64,000 bases of DNA from Gammaproteobacteria bacterium (GTDB lineage Bacteria > Pseudomonadota > Gammaproteobacteria > Pseudomonadales > Azotimanducaceae). Of the stretch, positions 44,058 to 53,030 are shown piece after piece. Under the pieces are notes generated by a model that was not told the origin of the DNA, searched no databases, and saw nothing but the letters and a program-made list of their open reading frames with translations. The number at the start of each line of letters is the position of its first letter. Position 1 is the stretch's first letter. The DNA is taken from the NCBI GenBank assembly GCA_018656865.1, contig JABHYO010000149.1, positions 1 through 64,000 of the forward strand, written 5' to 3'. Made by a program: the position numbers and the translations under genes.

Positions 44058-44763
44058 GGGCCAGAGTCTCCCTGTGCTGCATGAGGCATTCATTCTTCAT
44101 TCCCGAAACTATAGAGATACCAGCCTGATTGTCGATCTGCTTACCCGGGAAGAGGGGCGCTACTCGGTTGTCGTGAGGGGTGCCATGTCGCAAAAATCCA
44201 GGGTGAGAGGCAGGTTGCAGCCATTTACTCCATTGCTTGTCGCGTCGGTTGGTCGTAGTGAACTGAAGACTTCAACCTCCATTGATTTCCCTGGGAACTC
44301 TTATCGTCTGACAGGCGACAGGCTTCTTCTTGGGCTCTATGTAAATGAGCTGCTCTACAGACTGCTTGGTAAATTCGATCCCGTTCTGGAGTTGTTCGAT
44401 GATTATTGCCATCTGTTGACATCACTTGCGGATTGCCAGGGTGGTGTTTTGGATGTGAGATTGTTTGAACTGAGATTGTTACAAGAGCTGGGCTACGGTA
44501 TCAATTTCGACTATGACGCGGGGGATGGTCAGGCTGTTGAGGAAAATTCCCACTACAAGTTTGTAGTTCATGAGGGATTTCATCGTGTTGATGAGCCGGG
44601 CGACAGCGCGTTTTGCGGGGCAGAACTTAGATCTATTGCCGAGGGCAATCTGCAGGTTGTTAACGAGCGCAGGCTGCGTAACCTGACGCGCGTGTCTTTG
44701 GCAGAGTTGCTCGGTGACAAGCCTCTCAAAAGTCGTTCACTTTTTCGAGGGATAGCCAGGTGA
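44047..44763 (+). CDS. recO: DNA repair protein RecO
   Basis: RecO loads RecA with RecR and anneals single strands. The 238-residue protein (E. coli 242) begins with an OB-fold (HEAFILHSRNYRDTSLIVDL, GRYSVVVRGAMSQKSRVRG, LQPFTPLLVAS) and then the helical C-terminal domain (LYVNELLYRLLGKFDP, RLFELRLLQELGYGINFD). No Cys zinc finger is present, as in the enteric type. It overlaps era by 11 bases and acpS by four. pdxJ, the common next gene, is missing. Confidence 0.94.
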   Translation: MKSRGQSLPVLHEAFILHSRNYRDTSLIVDLLTREEGRYSVVVRGAMSQKSRVRGRLQPFTPLLVASVGRSELKTSTSIDFPGNSYRLTGDRLLLGLYVNELLYRLLGKFDPVLELFDDYCHLLTSLADCQGGVLDVRLFELRLLQELGYGINFDYDAGDGQAVEENSHYKFVVHEGFHRVDEPGDSAFCGAELRSIAEGNLQVVNERRLRNLTRVSLAELLGDKPLKSRSLFRGIAR

Positions 44764-45140
44764 TCGTTGGAACAGGCGTCGATATCGTCGATATTCGACG
44801 TATCGAGAATTCGATTAACCGATTCAGTGAACGATTTATACGCCGAATACTCAACGATGATGAGGTTCGTGATTCTCTCGAAGGAAAGCGTCTGGCGGGA
44901 TATGTTGCCCGCCAGTTTGCGGCTAAAGAGGCTGTCTCAAAAGCGCTGGGTACAGGTATGCGATCCGGGGTCTATTTTGGAAATATCCTCGTGCTGCGCA
45001 ATGAGTTTGGAGCACCTTTCGTCGAACTCCGTGCCGGTGCCAGGGCGAGAGCACAGCAAATAGATGCGACCGAAATTCAGGTCAGCCTCTCGGACGAACG
45101 GGACTATGCCATTGCCTATGCGGTCGCGATCAACTCTTAG
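44760..45140 (+). CDS. acpS: Holo-[acyl carrier protein] synthase
   Basis: AcpS attaches 4'-phosphopantetheine from CoA to acyl carrier protein. The 126-residue protein has the two signature motifs: GTGVDIVDIRRIENS (metal-binding Asp) and RQFAAKEAVSKALGTGM, followed by FVELRAGARARA and VSLSDERDYAIAYAVA. GTG start overlapping recO (GTGA). The gene converges with the GacS/BarA-like gene, six bases apart. Confidence 0.96.
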   Translation: MIVGTGVDIVDIRRIENSINRFSERFIRRILNDDEVRDSLEGKRLAGYVARQFAAKEAVSKALGTGMRSGVYFGNILVLRNEFGAPFVELRAGARARAQQIDATEIQVSLSDERDYAIAYAVAINS

Positions 45141-45146
45141 AAACCA

Positions 45147-47075
45147 CTAGCCCGTATCTGCTTTCTGGCTAAAAGGATCAGGGTGGTCTCTATACCAGGC
45201 TTCCAGCGCCGTAATTTCACCGTTCAGCAGATTGAGTAAGAGTGGTATTTGATCGTTGTCTGCCTGTTTCAGTGCCGATTCGAGTTTTTCTATCGCTCGG
45301 CCAAGCCGTGGTACACCACAGTATCGAACAGCCCCGTGCAGTTTGTGCACAGCTTGTTTCAGTTCTGAAAAGTCATGTGTACTGTCGTTAATCGACTGCT
45401 GATCTTCTGGCAGACTAGTCACTAGAATGCCCATGAGTTCTGCGGCCAGTTCGGGCCTGTGATTGGCATTTCGTAGTGCCAGCTCTTTGTCGAATAGCTC
45501 GAGACTGTGACTTGCAGGGACCGGCATGGGCGCGCGTGCGCCGAGTCTGCCTAGTTGTCTCAGGATAGATTTCAAATTCTCCATCCTGACTGGTTTGATC
45601 AGCACATCGTCCATGCCCGTATCGCGATAGGCTTTCTTTTCCTGTGAGGTGGCATGTGCGGTTAAACCAAACACGGGAATCTTTGATCCAAATTCCCGAA
45701 TCCGCCTTGTTGCTTCAACACCGTTCATGTCAGGCATCTGGATGTCCATAAAGATGATCTGGAAGGACTCCTCAGCGACTTTCTGGATGGCCTCTCGACC
45801 GGATTCCGCTTTGCTGACCGAGTGGCCCAATTCCGTCAGCTGTAGGGCCAGCAGTTTTGCATTGGCGGTGCTGTCGTCAACAACAAGTGCGTTGATTAGT
45901 CGTGACTCATCTCGGGCATGACCTATATGTTCGATTGCTGTCGTTAGTTCAGCCTGGGTGATGGGGTCTGCAAGTTGGATCCAGTATGGACGGTTGATCA
46001 CTGTGCGACTGTTGAGAAGTACAACCCAGGTTGTCTCGGGTAGATAGTGTTTGATGGAAAGGTAAGTATCAGACGATTCGTCGGAGACCAGACAAATATC
46101 CAGAAGCTCGGATTTGAAGTCTGTGGTGCTGCCAAGACCCATTAAATTGAGACGTGCCGCCAGGCTCTCACGCTCATATTCATCGTCAGCGATGACAAGT
46201 GCTGTGAGGCCACAGTCCACAGGCGCGGTAATTCGACTGTCTGGCAGGTTTGCCGGGAACTCGAGTTGGTTGTCGCGCCAGTCTGCACCGGACTCTGCTA
46301 TCCGGTCATCAAGGGCAAGAGAGATTTGAGGAGTGAAATCTCTAGAGAAGTTCAGGTTGAGGGAGTCTGCTTCGTAGGTGAATTCAAGTTTGTGGTTCCC
46401 CTTACGGTCAGGGCGAAGATAATCGAGAATGAGACGAAACAGGATTCTTCGGAAGTTTGCGGCAGCCAATTCAAGATTGGCGGGACTGTTGAGATCCGGT
46501 ACAACGTGAAACCGGCACTGATAGCGACTCAACAAAGGCGCCAGCAGCTGAAATACATTGTCGATCAGTTCAAGGATATTTTCGGTACTTCGCGTGCCGG
46601 TATCCTGTTTTTCCGCAAGCAGGAAGCTGATATTTTCGGCGGCTTTTGTGACCTCAGCGCGTTCACCGCCGCGATTCACCGCACCAATTAACTGACGTAG
46701 GGCGTGCTCCGAGAGATCCTGAACAGCGCCAAGGTAGACTTTTTCATCCTGAATCTCCTGGTGCAGTGCTTCTAGCTTCGACCTCTCTTCTACCTGATGT
46801 GCCTGTTTCTCCTTGTGCTGGCTCTCAACTTCCGATAATAATTCGTTCAGGCGTTCCACTTCCTCTGAATCATGATTCTGCTGACGTTTGATCGCAAAGC
46901 GAATCGCCCGTTCAAGTTTCTCTATAGTTTTGTTTTCAGTACGGTCTTTTTCCTGTCTGCCATAGAGTTGTTCGATCAGTTGCTCTAGAGGCGTAAACCA
47001 ACTGAATCGGAGGAAGAATGCCACTGCCAGGCACAATATGATGATCAGGGCAGCAGAGATTGCGTAGATTGCCAT
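45147..47075 (-). CDS. Degenerate GacS/BarA-like phosphorelay protein (receiver plus HPt, no kinase core)
   Basis: A 642-residue protein in the position of gacS/barA, divergent from cysM-rlmD-relA. One N-terminal membrane helix (residues 3-23) has no second helix or periplasmic sensor. Residues 42-115 look like a coiled coil. No HAMP or histidine H-box (HELRTPL type) is seen. Residues 115-265 resemble a decayed ATPase region: the place of the N-box reads FRRILFRLILDYLRP, without the Asn, and no DxGxG box exists. Residues 288-385 look like a receiver without a clear phospho-Asp. The second receiver (395-510) is normal: D400/D401, D444 (FMDIQMPDMNG), T472, K494. The HPt domain keeps VHKLHGAVRYCGVPRLG with H577. 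It probably relays phosphate instead of making it. Function is inferred. Confidence 0.85.
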   Translation of the reverse strand: MAIYAISAALIIILCLAVAFFLRFSWFTPLEQLIEQLYGRQEKDRTENKTIEKLERAIRFAIKRQQNHDSEEVERLNELLSEVESQHKEKQAHQVEERSKLEALHQEIQDEKVYLGAVQDLSEHALRQLIGAVNRGGERAEVTKAAENISFLLAEKQDTGTRSTENILELIDNVFQLLAPLLSRYQCRFHVVPDLNSPANLELAAANFRRILFRLILDYLRPDRKGNHKLEFTYEADSLNLNFSRDFTPQISLALDDRIAESGADWRDNQLEFPANLPDSRITAPVDCGLTALVIADDEYERESLAARLNLMGLGSTTDFKSELLDICLVSDESSDTYLSIKHYLPETTWVVLLNSRTVINRPYWIQLADPITQAELTTAIEHIGHARDESRLINALVVDDSTANAKLLALQLTELGHSVSKAESGREAIQKVAEESFQIIFMDIQMPDMNGVEATRRIREFGSKIPVFGLTAHATSQEKKAYRDTGMDDVLIKPVRMENLKSILRQLGRLGARAPMPVPASHSLELFDKELALRNANHRPELAAELMGILVTSLPEDQQSINDSTHDFSELKQAVHKLHGAVRYCGVPRLGRAIEKLESALKQADNDQIPLLLNLLNGEITALEAWYRDHPDPFSQKADTG

Positions 47076-47197: not shown

Positions 47198-48094
47198 ATG
47201 TCCGATTACCCAACAATTGAAGATTGTATTGGTGAAACACCGTTGGTTCGCCTGCAACGCCTGCCCGGTGATACGTCAAATACGGTGCTGGTAAAACTAG
47301 AGGGCAATAACCCGGCGGGTTCAGTTAAAGACAGGCCTGCAATCAGCATGATCCAGCGTGCTGAGCAAAAGGGAGAGATCAAACCCGGTGACACATTGAT
47401 CGAGGCGACAAGCGGTAATACAGGTATTGCTCTGGCTATGGCAGCTGCCATTAAGGGCTATCGGATGGTTCTGATAATGCCTTCTCATATGAGCGATGAA
47501 CGTAAGGCCGCGATGGCGGCTTATGGTGCCGAACTCCTTATGGTGACTCAGGAAGAGGGTATGGAAGGCGCGAGGGACCTTGCTGAGCAGATGCAAAATG
47601 AGGGCAAAGGAGTGATGCTCGATCAGTTTGCTAACCAGGACAATCCACTGGCGCACTACGAGGGCACAGGTCCGGAAATATACCGACAGACTGGAGGGAG
47701 GATTACCCACTTTGTCAGTTCAATGGGAACAACCGGTACCATCATGGGATGCTCCCGTTATTTCAAGGAAACAGATCCTGAAATCCAGGTCGTCGGTTTG
47801 CAGCCGGTAGAGGGTTCCCAGATACCAGGGATCCGGCGATGGTCTACAGCCTATTTACCGAAAATATACAATCGTGACAACATTGATATGGTTATCGACA
47901 TGGATCAATTAATGGCAGAAGTGACCATGCGCCGGTTGGCGACAGAAGAGGGTATCTTCTGTGGTGTCTCGTCCGGTGGTGCCGTAGCAGGAGCCTTGCA
48001 GCTTAGTGAACAGGTCGAGAATGCAACCATCGTTGCCATCGTCTGTGACAGGGGTGACCGTTATCTGTCGACGGGTGTTTTCAGTAACGGATAA
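47198..48094 (+). CDS. cysM: Cysteine synthase B
   Basis: CysM is a PLP enzyme making cysteine from O-acetylserine and sulfide or thiosulfate. The 298-residue protein has NPAGSVKDRPA with the PLP lysine, EATSGNTGIALAMAAA (phosphate loop), MPSHMSDERKAAM, SSMGTTGTIMGCSRY and GVSSGGAVAGAL. Subtype CysM over CysK is supported by the IRRWSTAYLPKIY and short length. Its place beside a GacS-like gene, rlmD and relA is the one seen in Pseudomonas. Confidence 0.95.
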   Translation: MSDYPTIEDCIGETPLVRLQRLPGDTSNTVLVKLEGNNPAGSVKDRPAISMIQRAEQKGEIKPGDTLIEATSGNTGIALAMAAAIKGYRMVLIMPSHMSDERKAAMAAYGAELLMVTQEEGMEGARDLAEQMQNEGKGVMLDQFANQDNPLAHYEGTGPEIYRQTGGRITHFVSSMGTTGTIMGCSRYFKETDPEIQVVGLQPVEGSQIPGIRRWSTAYLPKIYNRDNIDMVIDMDQLMAEVTMRRLATEEGIFCGVSSGGAVAGALQLSEQVENATIVAIVCDRGDRYLSTGVFSNG

Positions 48095-48124: not shown

Positions 48125-49420
48125 ATGAAGTACCGTGAACCTCTGGATCTCACCATCGATACCCTCAACGAGGATGGATGTGGTTTGTCCGCAGACGGTC
48201 AATTTGCCGTCTATGGGAGTTTGCCCGGGGAAAGTGTCACGGCTCAGCCGCTTACGCAAAAACGCAAAAAGGTTTTTCTGAAAACCATTGCCGTAAAAAA
48301 TCCTTCATCAGAAAGAGTTGAACCTCATTGCCCGGCCGCAGCTTCCTGTGGTGGATGCAGCTATCAGCATATGAAGCATTCAGCGCAGCTGGAATTTAAA
48401 TCCGGTCTCTTGAGGAAGCACTTATTGCCACTGGAACCCCTCGAGTGGTTGCCACCAGTGACGGGTCCGACCCTGGGCTATCGGAGCAAGGCGCGGCTTG
48501 GCGTCAGGTATGTTGAAAAAAAAGGGCGAGTTCTGGTTGGATTTAGAGAAAAACAGAAATCCTATATCACCGATATCTCAGCCTGCCCTGTGCTCTCGGG
48601 AGACAATGCTGATCTGATTACACCCCTTCAGGAACTTGTTGGGGCCCTCTCTGTAGCTCGATCTGTACCCCAGATAGAAGTTGCGGCAGGAGATGAAGAA
48701 ACTGCGCTGATAATTCGACATCTGGAACCTTTTGATCAACACGACCTTGAATTACTCTCGAGTTTCAGTGATAGATACGGTGTTCAAATATTTCTGCAAC
48801 CCGGAGGTATAAAAACAATCCGCCGGGTCTTTCCCGATACGCAGGACACCTATCTTGAGTATTCTCTACCGAAGTTCGGACTCGACTTCAGATTCAAACC
48901 TTCGGACTTCACCCAGGTAAACCTTGCAGTCAACCGGCAGATGGTGGCGCGAGCAGTTGAGCTGCTCGATCTGAGGCCTACTGATGGGGTCTTTGACGCG
49001 TTTTGCGGTATTGGTAATTTTTCCCTCGCTATCGCCCGGTCAGTTAGTCGTGTAGTCGGGGCTGAGCAGTCGGCTGAAAGTATCGATCGTGCCCGGCTGA
49101 ATAGCAGCTTGAATGCCGTGGAAAACGTCACTTTTGAAGTGGTTGATTTACAGGACGATTCGCCTGAAATACCCGGATTTACTGGCCTTAACAAGGTGCT
49201 GCTGGACCCACCGAGAAGCGGGGCGAAAGCGCTGATGAAAGTACTTGAAAGTCCTGATGTAGAGAGGGTAGTGTACGTGTCCTGCAACCCGGAGACTCTT
49301 GCGAGAGATGCAAAAATGCTTGTCCAGCAAGGCTTTACACTCCGGTCTGCCGGAATAATAGATATGTTTCCACACACAACGCATGTAGAATCCGTCGCGC
49401 TTTTCTGCCGCCAGGGTTAA
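48125..49420 (+). CDS. rlmD: 23S rRNA (uracil-1939-C5)-methyltransferase
   Basis: RlmD methylates U1939 of 23S rRNA. The 431-residue protein has an N-terminal TRAM domain (LDLTIDTLNEDGCGLSADG), Cys residues for an Fe-S cluster (HCPAAASCGGCSYQHM and ISACPVL), the SAM-binding FDAFCGIGNFSLAIA, and the catalytic regions LLDPPRSGAKAL and VYVSCNPETLARD (nucleophilic Cys). Thirty bases after cysM; followed by relA, as in E. coli. Confidence 0.96.
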   Translation: MKYREPLDLTIDTLNEDGCGLSADGQFAVYGSLPGESVTAQPLTQKRKKVFLKTIAVKNPSSERVEPHCPAAASCGGCSYQHMKHSAQLEFKSGLLRKHLLPLEPLEWLPPVTGPTLGYRSKARLGVRYVEKKGRVLVGFREKQKSYITDISACPVLSGDNADLITPLQELVGALSVARSVPQIEVAAGDEETALIIRHLEPFDQHDLELLSSFSDRYGVQIFLQPGGIKTIRRVFPDTQDTYLEYSLPKFGLDFRFKPSDFTQVNLAVNRQMVARAVELLDLRPTDGVFDAFCGIGNFSLAIARSVSRVVGAEQSAESIDRARLNSSLNAVENVTFEVVDLQDDSPEIPGFTGLNKVLLDPPRSGAKALMKVLESPDVERVVYVSCNPETLARDAKMLVQQGFTLRSAGIIDMFPHTTHVESVALFCRQG

Positions 49421-49467: not shown

Positions 49468-51684
49468 ATGGTTAAGGTCAGACAAGAACAGCCATTGCTT
49501 GTTGACGGTTCCGTCAATCTGGAAATGTGGCTCTGCAAGATTGGCGACCAGCGTCCTGAGCTGAACCTGTCCCGTCTTCGCGATGTTTGCGAGTTTTCAG
49601 AAAAAGCTGAAGAAAAGGCCGTGTCTTCCAACAGCATCTGGGCTGACGGGCACAGCAGTTATCGAATGGGCCTGGACATGGCCGAGATACTGAATGAGCT
49701 CAGAGTCGACGAAGATGGCCTTGCCGCCGCGATCATCTACCGTGCCGTCAGGGAGAATCAGCTAACACTAAACCTGGTCCGCAAACAGTTTGGCGAAGAA
49801 GTTGCGCGGCTGGTAGAAGGTGTTCTGAAGATGGCGGCAATCAGCGACATCCAATTTGGCACTCACCGTGTTGTCCTTGGCGAACGGAAGGATCAGTTTG
49901 AGCAGGCGCGTCAGCTGCTGGTTTCACTGGTGGACGATGTTCGGGTGGCGCTTCTAAAACTTGCAGAACGGACCTGTCGTATCAGGAATGCAGTAAAGAG
50001 TGAGGATCCCAGTAGAAGGCAGTTGGCGAGAGAGGTCTTCGAAATATATGCACCACTAGCCCACCGTCTGGGCATTGGTCACTTGAAGTGGGAGCTGGAA
50101 GATCTGTCCTTCCGACTGCGGGAGCCGAAAGCATACAAGCGGATTGCATCACTGCTGGATGAAAAGAGGACTGCCCGGCAGGAATATATCGCGGACGTAG
50201 TTATGGAGCTGACACGCCGCATCAGACAAATTGGCGTGGACGGTACCGTAACCGGTAGGCCAAAGCACATCTATTCCATTTGGCGAAAAATGCATCGAAA
50301 AGGCATCCCCTTTTCCGAGATTTACGATGTTAGAGCGGTGCGAATCCTTGTAGATCATGTCGACGATTGTTATCGCATTCTGGGTATCGTCCACAATCTT
50401 TGGCGAAACATTCCTCACGAGTTTGACGACTACATCGCCAACCCCAAGGAAAATGGTTACCAATCATTGCATACCGCCGTTGTTGGACCGGATGGGAAGG
50501 TGCTGGAGATTCAGATTCGCACCGAGGACATGCATGAAGAAGCCGAGTACGGAGTTTGCTCTCATTGGCAGTATAAAGGGCCGGGAGACAAGGCAGGATC
50601 AGATTCCTATGAACAGCGAATAGAGTGGCTGAGGCAGATTGTAGAAGGCCAGGACGAAGAAATTGGTCAGGACAGCGATCTTCTTGGAGACATCTCTGTC
50701 GATCGAATATTTGTATTTACCCCTGAAGGTGATGTCGTCGACATGATGCCTGGAGCGACGCCAGTGGATTTTGCCTATCGAGTTCACACAGAGATTGGTC
50801 ACAAATGTCGGGGTGCGAAGGTCAATGGCCGTATGGTACCCCTCAACACGGAACTAAAGTCCGGAGATCGTATTGAAGTCATCGTTGGCGATTTGCCGGA
50901 ACCGCGCCGTGAATGGTTGCATGAACATCTGGGATACGTCGCGACGAGCCGGGCGAGGGCCAAGATTCAAAATTGGTTTGGACGCCTGGAACGTCAGAAA
51001 AATATCGACGAAGGCAAAAAGGTGCTGGTTGATGAGCTAAGACACCTCGGAGTTGAGAATCTTGATTTTTCGGAGCTTGTCATCCGAGCCGGTTATAAAA
51101 CCGCGAATGATCTCTTTTATGCGATCGCGATTGGTGCGGCAGAAGCGATAGAGATTGTAGAAAAGGCAACGGATCTTGTCAGTCTCGATGTTTCAAGTCA
51201 TCAGCTCGATCTTGAAATGGAAGAAGAGTCTGGTGAGCAGGTCTGGATCACGGGGCAGGCCGATATGGCCTATGTTATGGCGGAGTGTTGTCAGCCCGTA
51301 CCCGGTGACATGATTGTTGGCGTTGTTGATGAAGACGACGTCGTCGCCGTGCACCGGGAAGACTGTCTTCAGGTGTTGCTGGCAGATGTCTATGGTCGGC
51401 TGATGAAACTTGAGTGGCGCGATACGATGCAGGTAACCTTCCCTGTTAATATCGAGGTGCTTGCTTATGATCGGTTCGGCCTGTTGCACGATATTACCGG
51501 GATACTGATGCGGGAGAGAACCAACGTACAGTCCATTGGCACGGTAACGGACAAACAGAATAATCGCGTTACCTTAAAGATGGTTCTTGAAGTCGCCCAG
51601 CTCAACCGCTTGTTGGAGACACTGGAAAGAATTGAACAACTGCCGAACGTCCTGTCAGCAAGACGGACCGTTTCCGCAATCTGA
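49468..51684 (+). CDS. relA: GTP pyrophosphokinase RelA
   Basis: RelA makes (p)ppGpp when uncharged tRNA enters the ribosome. The 738-residue protein (E. coli 744) has an inactive hydrolase domain: where bifunctional enzymes have the His-Asp of LLHDxVEDT, this reads IIYRAVREN. The synthetase domain includes GRPKHIYSIWRKMHRKG, YDVRAVRILVDHVDDCYR, HEFDDYIANPKENGYQSLHT and EIQIRTEDMHEEAEYG. Then follow TGS (FVFTPEGDVVDMMPGATPVD), zinc-finger and C-terminal ACT (DRFGLLHDITGILMRE) domains. The missing His-Asp pair identifies RelA, not SpoT. Confidence 0.97.
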   Translation: MVKVRQEQPLLVDGSVNLEMWLCKIGDQRPELNLSRLRDVCEFSEKAEEKAVSSNSIWADGHSSYRMGLDMAEILNELRVDEDGLAAAIIYRAVRENQLTLNLVRKQFGEEVARLVEGVLKMAAISDIQFGTHRVVLGERKDQFEQARQLLVSLVDDVRVALLKLAERTCRIRNAVKSEDPSRRQLAREVFEIYAPLAHRLGIGHLKWELEDLSFRLREPKAYKRIASLLDEKRTARQEYIADVVMELTRRIRQIGVDGTVTGRPKHIYSIWRKMHRKGIPFSEIYDVRAVRILVDHVDDCYRILGIVHNLWRNIPHEFDDYIANPKENGYQSLHTAVVGPDGKVLEIQIRTEDMHEEAEYGVCSHWQYKGPGDKAGSDSYEQRIEWLRQIVEGQDEEIGQDSDLLGDISVDRIFVFTPEGDVVDMMPGATPVDFAYRVHTEIGHKCRGAKVNGRMVPLNTELKSGDRIEVIVGDLPEPRREWLHEHLGYVATSRARAKIQNWFGRLERQKNIDEGKKVLVDELRHLGVENLDFSELVIRAGYKTANDLFYAIAIGAAEAIEIVEKATDLVSLDVSSHQLDLEMEEESGEQVWITGQADMAYVMAECCQPVPGDMIVGVVDEDDVVAVHREDCLQVLLADVYGRLMKLEWRDTMQVTFPVNIEVLAYDRFGLLHDITGILMRERTNVQSIGTVTDKQNNRVTLKMVLEVAQLNRLLETLERIEQLPNVLSARRTVSAI

Positions 51685-52373: not shown

Positions 52374-52667
52374 TTTCGCGCGCAGTCGCAGCTTAGCGAA
52401 CCTGTTAGTCAGAGGTGCAGATGTTGAAAGTTGCTTGAGTTTCAGCTTTTTAGGCGAACAACATACCAAAGGCTGTTAACTTGTTTGCATAAAATACTGA
52501 AAAAGTTGTAAAAAAAGGTGTGCAATGTCAAAAGATATTTTCTAAACTTTGCATCGTATTCGCGCTGTATCGAATGTATTTGTAATGAATGTGTTTGAAA
52601 TGAATGGGTTTAGATATGGTTGGCGTTACTGCGGTAAACTTTCCAACGTAAAACAGGAGCGATGAAA
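52374..52667 (+). promoter_or_regulatory. AT-rich leader region of the H1-like gene
   Basis: A gap of nearly 290 bp, markedly richer in A and T than the neighbours, with repeated AATG-containing tracts (GTATTTGTAATGAATGTG, then TGAAATGAATGGG). TTTGCATAAAAT near 52484-52495 could hold a -10 (TAAAAT), but no well-placed -35 is seen. AGGAG at 52655-52659 is the ribosome site of the next gene. No ORF of note and no tRNA are seen. Confidence 0.35.
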
Positions 52668-53030
52668 GTGGTTGCAAAAAAGAAAGCTGCTAAGAAAAAA
52701 CCGGTTGCCAGAAAAAAGGCTGCTGCCAAGAAAAAGGTAGCTGCCAAAAGAAAGCCGGCAGCAAAGAAGAAAGTCGCCAAGAAAAAGGTTGCTAAGAAAA
52801 AAGTAGCTAAGAGAAAGCCAGCTGCTAAGAAGAAGGCGGCGGCTAAAAAGAAAAAGCCGGCAGCCAGGAAAAAGGTCGCCAAAAAAAGGCCAGCTAAAAA
52901 GAAAGTCGCCAAGAAAAAGGTTGCTAAGAAAAAAGTAACTAAGCGAAAGCCAGCTGCTAAGAAGAAGGTAGCCGCAAAAAGGAAAAAGGCGCCTGCTAAG
53001 AGAAAGAAAGCTGCTAAGAAGCGTAGATAG
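52668..53030 (+). CDS. Histone H1-like lysine/alanine-rich DNA-binding protein
   Basis: A protein of about 120 residues, almost wholly Lys, Ala, Arg, Pro and Val in KKxAAKK/KKKVA units (KKKVAKKKVAKKKVAKRKPA), like bacterial H1-type proteins (AlgP/Hc family C-terminal tails). Such proteins bind DNA without sequence specificity. A 44-residue unit occurs twice, from a 132-base-spaced duplication. Two starts six bases apart compete: ATG 52662 is only two bases from AGGAG, GTG 52668 is eight, so GTG is preferred. It is followed by a good intrinsic terminator. The single-gene unit stands next to mobA. Specific function is inferred from composition only. Confidence 0.85.
   Translation: MVAKKKAAKKKPVARKKAAAKKKVAAKRKPAAKKKVAKKKVAKKKVAKRKPAAKKKAAAKKKKPAARKKVAKKRPAKKKVAKKKVAKKKVTKRKPAAKKKVAAKRKKAPAKRKKAAKKRR
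52767..52968 (+). repeat. Internal direct repeat of the H1-like gene
   Basis: About 70 bases at 52767-52836 recur at 52899-52968 with two mismatches, an offset of 132 bases (44 codons). Near-identity at DNA level, not only protein, points to a recent duplication or recombination within the gene. Confidence 0.8.

Follow-up and report, generated by a model that had tools for sequence, protein, structure and literature searches.

The gacS/barA orthologue in the DNA analyzed here (the window, a 64,000-nucleotide stretch from a Gammaproteobacteria bacterium) encodes a protein from which, as read from profile alignments, the phospho-accepting histidine and the ATP-binding boxes of the GacS/BarA kinase core are gone. 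Kinase-less gacS/barA genes characterize a clade comprising at least 10 genera and are not confined to one genome, and alignments indicate that the receiver and HPt domains are conserved across most of this clade. We consider it probable that, at its original locus, a GacS/BarA sensor kinase has been remodelled into a phosphorelay station anchored in the membrane, which would connect other hybrid kinases to GacA.

The ORF is intact, spans positions 45147-47075 of the window on the minus strand and encodes 642 residues; coordinates, strand, length and listed residues are all as the initial annotation gave them. The features of the gene and its surroundings are as follows.

45147..47075, minus strand: kinase-less GacS/BarA orthologue, 642 aa, as judged from ORF, Pfam, NCBIfam and profile alignment
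47007..47057, minus strand: one predicted membrane helix near the N terminus, roughly residues 7-23 (sequence reading; helix 2-39 in the model)
46617..46796, minus strand: degenerate DHp helical hairpin, residues 94-153 (profile alignment, AlphaFold2)
46716..46718, minus strand: D120 codon, corresponding to the phospho-accepting His (H302) of BarA (profile alignment)
46236..46589, minus strand: remnant of the ATP-binding (CA) domain, residues 163-280, N, G1 and G2 boxes absent (Pfam, alignment, model, fold search)
45903..46214, minus strand: pseudo-receiver, residues 288-391 (profile alignment, AlphaFold2)
45543..45896, minus strand: canonical receiver domain, residues 394-511 (Pfam, AlphaFold2, match to 7qz2)
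45744..45746, minus strand: D444 codon, predicted phospho-acceptor (alignment)
45186..45488, minus strand: HPt domain, residues 530-630 (Pfam, AlphaFold2)
45345..45347, minus strand: H577 codon, predicted HPt phospho-His (alignment)
44760..45140, plus strand: neighbouring ORF that we take to be acpS-like (ORF; synteny)
47198..48094, plus strand: divergent neighbour, presumably cysM-like (ORF; synteny)
48125..49420, plus strand: neighbour, presumably rlmD-like, a name also used in the initial annotation (ORF; compare the E. coli order relA-rlmD-barA)
49468..51684, plus strand: neighbour that we take to be relA-like, likewise so named initially (ORF; synteny, E. coli order)

In a Pfam search of the protein at E ≤ 1, Response_reg matched residues 397-505 (E = 1.1e-27) and Hpt matched residues 546-627 (E = 1.9e-10), together with five further families that each scored under their own cut-off. 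The best NCBIfam match was BarA, with 174 bits against a cut-off of 890 bits and over residues 369-618 only. The AlphaFold2 model (mean pLDDT 77.9, pTM 0.54) comprises a helical hairpin, a partial CA-like fold in which segments 237-248 and 259-272 have pLDDT <50, and three C-terminal domains; the receiver matches the crystal structure of GacS D1 (7qz2) with Z 20.8 and 42% identity. The layout first proposed from the sequence is supported throughout: the single membrane helix and coiled coil, both predicted, by sequence reading and the model, the pseudo-receiver ahead of the canonical receiver by profile alignment and AlphaFold2, and the canonical receiver (D400/D401, D444, T472, K494) and HPt domain (H577) by Pfam, alignment and model.

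The gene occupies the conserved site acpS-[gacS]-cysM-rlmD-relA, and E. coli barA also adjoins rlmD-relA. The protein aligns over nearly its full length with intact GacS/BarA proteins (hhalign 100%, E = 1e-86). Judged by neighbourhood and full-length profile similarity, the ORF is a GacS/BarA orthologue, and the position and orthology claimed for it at the outset are borne out by this alignment and the synteny with cysM, rlmD, relA and acpS. Elsewhere in the window, an ORF of 122 aa with lysine/alanine repeats (52662-53030) is histone-H1-like. Within its genome, the window copy alone passes E 1e-45 with a receiver+HPt profile. The best BarA-profile match besides it, an ORF on another contig (C215), scored 421 bits, far under the cut-off of 890, and encodes a complete hybrid kinase of 824 aa; we rejected it as a second GacS, and the search for another GacS in the full genome gave none that we took as an orthologue. 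The C215 hybrid kinase is a possible partner of the kinase-less GacS.

A set of 80 named loci, drawn with receiver motifs and serving as a sample rather than a census, gave one member of the kinase-less clade (L107), full GacS proteins and unrelated hybrid kinases. Among the matches listed, 43 of the 80 have at least one expected neighbour, and simple patterns found the H box in 41 and the G2 box in 38 of these 43. The loci without G2 among the matches listed were L107, L138 and three from Microbulbifer. The Microbulbifer GacS proteins (L127, L142, L143) keep the H box and have unusual G1/G2 boxes, and their HATPase_c matches are still over the cut-off.

Several lines of evidence point to loss of the kinase core in the window protein. 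HisKA and HATPase_c gave no Pfam match to it at E ≤ 1; a stricter scan (E ≤ 0.05) of a comparison set of nine proteins that included E. coli BarA found both domains in six. When ten clade members were aligned as a profile with 20 intact GacS/BarA proteins (hhalign), D120 aligned with the phospho-His H302 of BarA, R214 and D218 aligned with the N-box residues N415 and N419, and the G1/G2 region of the intact proteins faced gaps. The Pfam search also gave no match to HAMP or a sensor domain, nor, at E ≤ 1, to the 7TMR-DISM sensor domains that LadS and RetS carry. Since the full-model fold search was dominated by receivers, the kinase part was modelled separately; the isolated remnant resembles histidine-kinase CA domains over about 100 residues, with RetS as top match (Z 11.0, tied with several others) and GacS at Z 9.6.

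The initial annotation had noted the missing H-box, N and G boxes and proposed an HMM search and structure prediction as checks. The Pfam result and the aligned residues agree with that loss, and the two checks showed no intact HisKA/HATPase pair, the structure model containing a partial CA-like fold. That the core is intact and merely too divergent for recognition is barely credible: the predicted CA-like fold speaks for it, but the phospho-His, both N-box asparagines and the G1/G2 segment are gone in the profile alignment, and the whole core is absent from two related proteins (L027, L065). A sequencing error, raised at the same time as a possible cause of the missing motifs, was checked against three further members of this genus (genomes with loci L019, L062 and L020); because these show the same kinase-less state, an assembly error is very unlikely.

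We examined the spread of the kinase-less gene in a sample of 100 genomes of the family. CysM was matched at E ≤ 1e-60 in 37 genomes, 36 of which have a close CysM, and most of the sampled genomes lack it; the locus of one genome (G002) was placed by era-recO instead of CysM. Two loci that begin at contig ends (G098, G089) were left out of the count, and each of these genomes holds a GacS-like receiver+HPt on another contig. The count comprises 35 readable gac loci, with the other 63 genomes outside it: 25 are kinase-less (10 genera), four, all in genus g35, have an intact kinase, and six (L063, L064, L066, L076, L080 and L081, from genomes G034, G028, G054, G014, G036 and G084) have no readable gene, although a short match to the C-terminal tail remains in G028.

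The 29 proteins encoded at these loci differ in domain content. Pfam searches (E ≤ 0.01) matched Hpt in 27, the receiver in 24, HisKA in five and HATPase_c in four, some of the Hpt and receiver matches lying below the Pfam cut-off. Five members keep an Hpt match without a receiver match (L072, L077, L078, L079, L082), with Hpt over the Pfam cut-off in L077 and L078 and below it in the other three; in L029 the receiver is below the cut-off and Asn stands at the D444 position. The HPt of L091 is frameshifted and gave no Hpt match, and one kinase-less member (L022, genome G008) has a weak Hpt match and has lost the HPt His. By overall form, the gene is reduced to receiver+HPt in G067 and G002, and in G061, G051, G022, G087, G071 and G020 the HPt is found with the receiver lost or degraded. 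The HPt-only forms are L077, L078 and L079, and GacA was not found in two of these three genomes (G087, G071). In G030 (L026:772-2256), an intact H box and DHp are joined directly to receiver and HPt and the ATPase domain is absent; this protein could receive phosphate in trans.

Across the order, 145 genomes were searched with the receiver+HPt profile, which an HPt-only gene would escape. A match at E ≤ 1e-45 was found in 96 genomes and reached at least 220 bits in 78, frames being read in these 78. Among the 78, the window gene is the sole complete short frame. The strong matches from other families have frames of at least 874 aa in 75 of 77 cases, and the remaining two run into contig ends; frame length serves here as a proxy for kinase state, motifs having been read in four of the 77, with both boxes in three and the fourth cut off before the boxes. 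At the same locus in the Alteromonadaceae MAG NORP12 (L138:3279-5810), receiver and HPt are kept, HATPase_c gave no match and Arg was read at the H-box His, so that the GacS ATPase domain and the H-box His were apparently lost here a second time, independently.

A tree of Era+RecO was built for 42 loci; it covers the family loci whose stretches hold both era and recO, which that of G030 does not. In this tree, the 21 family loci where the gene is kinase-less or absent form one clade with L107, a Pseudomonadales MAG that sits inside it (support 0.99), the three intact g35 loci of the tree fall outside this clade, and L138 is placed elsewhere. The simplest reading is one kinase loss followed by trimming in several lines to receiver+HPt, to HPt alone or to no gene.

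Conservation is highest at the C-terminal end of the protein. Mean pairwise identity among 13 full kinase-less proteins is 0.16 for membrane/coil, 0.19 for DHp, 0.23 for CA, 0.27 for the pseudo-receiver and 0.40 for both receiver and HPt; the corresponding values for 20 intact proteins are 0.64 for DHp, 0.47 for CA, 0.18 for the pseudo-receiver, 0.47 for the receiver and 0.33 for HPt. These numbers bear on the idea that the protein mainly dimerizes with another kinase or inhibits it, without catalysis of its own, acting through its DHp hairpin as RetS does on GacS. A helical hairpin is indeed predicted and RetS heads the structural matches of the CA remnant, but DHp is the second least conserved part and, in the alignment as read, is absent from the HPt-keeping members L027, L065, L077 and L078, and we regard this function as quite improbable.

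At the level of single residues, 23 of the 25 kinase-less rows have His at H577, 22 have Asp at D444, 23 Asp at D400, 19 Lys at K494 and 18 Thr at T472, the receiver columns including rows without a receiver match, where the alignment is doubtful. In three close pairs with usable pS, dN/dS is 0.21, 0.21 and 0.32, the two full-length pairs being those at 0.21; for L019/L062 pS is saturated and the ratio unusable. It is very unlikely that the gene is in slow decay and without present function. Six relatives have no readable gene, L091 carries a frameshift and the HPt His is gone from one member, as decay would have it, but most of the 25 kinase-less loci have long intact frames, dN/dS is about 0.2, and most rows, which come from 10 genera, still show the catalytic receiver and HPt residues. 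The earlier remark that this is not simply a decaying pseudogene agrees with the ratios of the two full-length, unsaturated pairs.

Partners for a relay were sought in the window genome. It encodes CsrA and a UvrY/GacA-family regulator, the look-up suggested initially, which scores 300 bits against a cut-off of 280 bits and is followed by ORFs that read as uvrC and pgsA. Seven receiver-bearing proteins were scanned, and five of them, encoded on contigs C96, C103, C159, C169 and C174, are hybrid kinases that end in a receiver without HPt, HisKA being just below the cut-off in two of the five. Contig C123 (L055:347-1156) encodes a further receiver-HPt protein, which stands alone and has 270 aa. 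The search for LadS-type sensor domains with PF07696 gave zero matches in the window genome and zero in all 14 controls. For TGTAAG-N6-CTTACA, which we take to be the GacA-box consensus, a search allowing up to one mismatch gave one exact palindrome, before a transporter-like ORF and with no evident sRNA there, and a control pattern gave five matches per strand; Rfam at the palindrome gave one match, under the gathering score. The window genome is in 221 contigs, and an sRNA locus may be missing from it.

Across the family, a GacA-type match at E ≤ 1e-25 was found in 73 of the 100 genomes. GacA is present in 21 of 25 genomes with the kinase-less gene, in four of four with the intact kinase and in two of seven that lack the gene (G034, and G036 with a match at 49% identity). 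At this threshold it was not found in G073, G079, G087 and G071, of which G073 and G079 are 84% and 87% complete, nor in the gene-less G014, G084, G028, G054 and G088, the gene state of G088, which belongs to the window's own genus, being judged by search alone. The difference between 21/25 and 2/7 has a Fisher p of 0.010, or 0.004 without the weak G036 match, uncorrected for kinship. The test covers only genomes with a judged GacS state, and 46 of the other 64 have a GacA-type match. Two of the genomes with neither the gene nor GacA have congeners, G046 and G067, in which both are present.

These partners fit the conversion to a relay station as follows. One or more of the hybrid kinases without HPt would pass phosphate to H577, directly or via D444, and H577 would hand it on to GacA; what is left of the kinase would have no role beyond anchoring, framing the dimer or docking. 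Because the kinase core is gone, the phosphate must come from another source for any forward signalling. To this extent the dependence on outside phosphate that the initial annotation proposed stands, and it fits the use of the GacS HPt by LadS in Pseudomonas aeruginosa (PMC4866733, available text); the 'reversed use' of a hybrid-kinase frame is better worded as a conversion from kinase to relay. The HPt is kept most often, the receiver next, and the kinase is gone, which is the pattern expected from LadS-type use of the HPt. Some points count against the relay: G087 and G071 keep an HPt-only gene with no GacA found, and their HPt may serve another regulator; G034 has GacA and no gene; and the HPt His is lost in G008.

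The main rival is a dedicated phosphate sink, a reverse relay of the kind reported for ArcB, in which GacA phosphorylated by another source would lose its phosphate through H577 and D444 as Pi. A sink requires no kinase core, most kinase-less members retain the receiver along with the HPt, and the pattern expected if phosphate drained from GacA is much like that of a relay. However, L072, L077, L078, L079 and L082 keep an Hpt match without a receiver match, and L029 has Asn in place of D444 in a receiver that scores below the cut-off; because these members exist, D444 is not always needed. In addition, acetyl phosphate did not phosphorylate Shewanella UvrY in vitro, according to the available text of PMC3171408, where the data are not shown. 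HPt members without a working receiver weigh against the sink as a general answer, and we think it rather unlikely.

The relay station that we favour has parallels in known systems. E. coli BarA and Pseudomonas GacS share with the window protein the gene position and orientation relative to rlmD/relA, the pseudo-receiver, receiver and HPt, the HPt signature type H-K-L-x-G-A-x-x-Y-C-G-V-P and the presence of GacA; the window protein differs in having one membrane helix and no phospho-His, ATP-binding boxes or Pfam HAMP/sensor domain. As described in the available text of PMC4866733, LadS passes phosphate to the GacS HPt in P. aeruginosa and needs nothing else of GacS, so that an in-trans kinase reaches GacA through this domain. 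There GacS keeps its own kinase, whereas here the kinase part is gone and the donor is only a candidate. RcsD, by its description in the accessible part of PMC7418988, sits in the membrane, carries an HPt as well as an HATPase-like region, and stands between the separate hybrid kinase RcsC and a regulator; the likeness is by description, not sequence, and RcsD acts beside an active RcsC, whereas here the gacS gene itself would have been converted and keeps a canonical receiver. For SypF of Vibrio fischeri, the HPt alone can complement the loss of sypF and takes its input from other hybrid kinases; SypF itself is treated there as a sensor kinase/phosphatase (PMC12369376, PMC8175716, available portions). 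Among the matches listed, titles and abstract openings gave no description of a kinase-less GacS; subscription literature is thinly covered there, and the support for novelty is weak.

GacS/GacA is a central switch of the Gammaproteobacteria, and the reason why its sensor carries an extra receiver and HPt is not obvious. A clade with the kinase removed and the relay kept is a natural test of the idea that various sensors feed in through one common port, the HPt. The signals that reach Gac would now come from such sensors, just as LadS input passes through the GacS HPt in P. aeruginosa. For the clade of at least 10 genera as a whole, we give even chances that Gac has lost its sensor kinase, with GacS gutted once, its relay half kept and then trimmed in separate lineages as far as the HPt, and all input to GacA arriving via other sensors. 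The clade also serves as a warning that a gene may owe the name BarA/GacS to its position or its C-terminal half and yet encode no kinase. If the conversion is true, a hub sensor would have become a hub adaptor.
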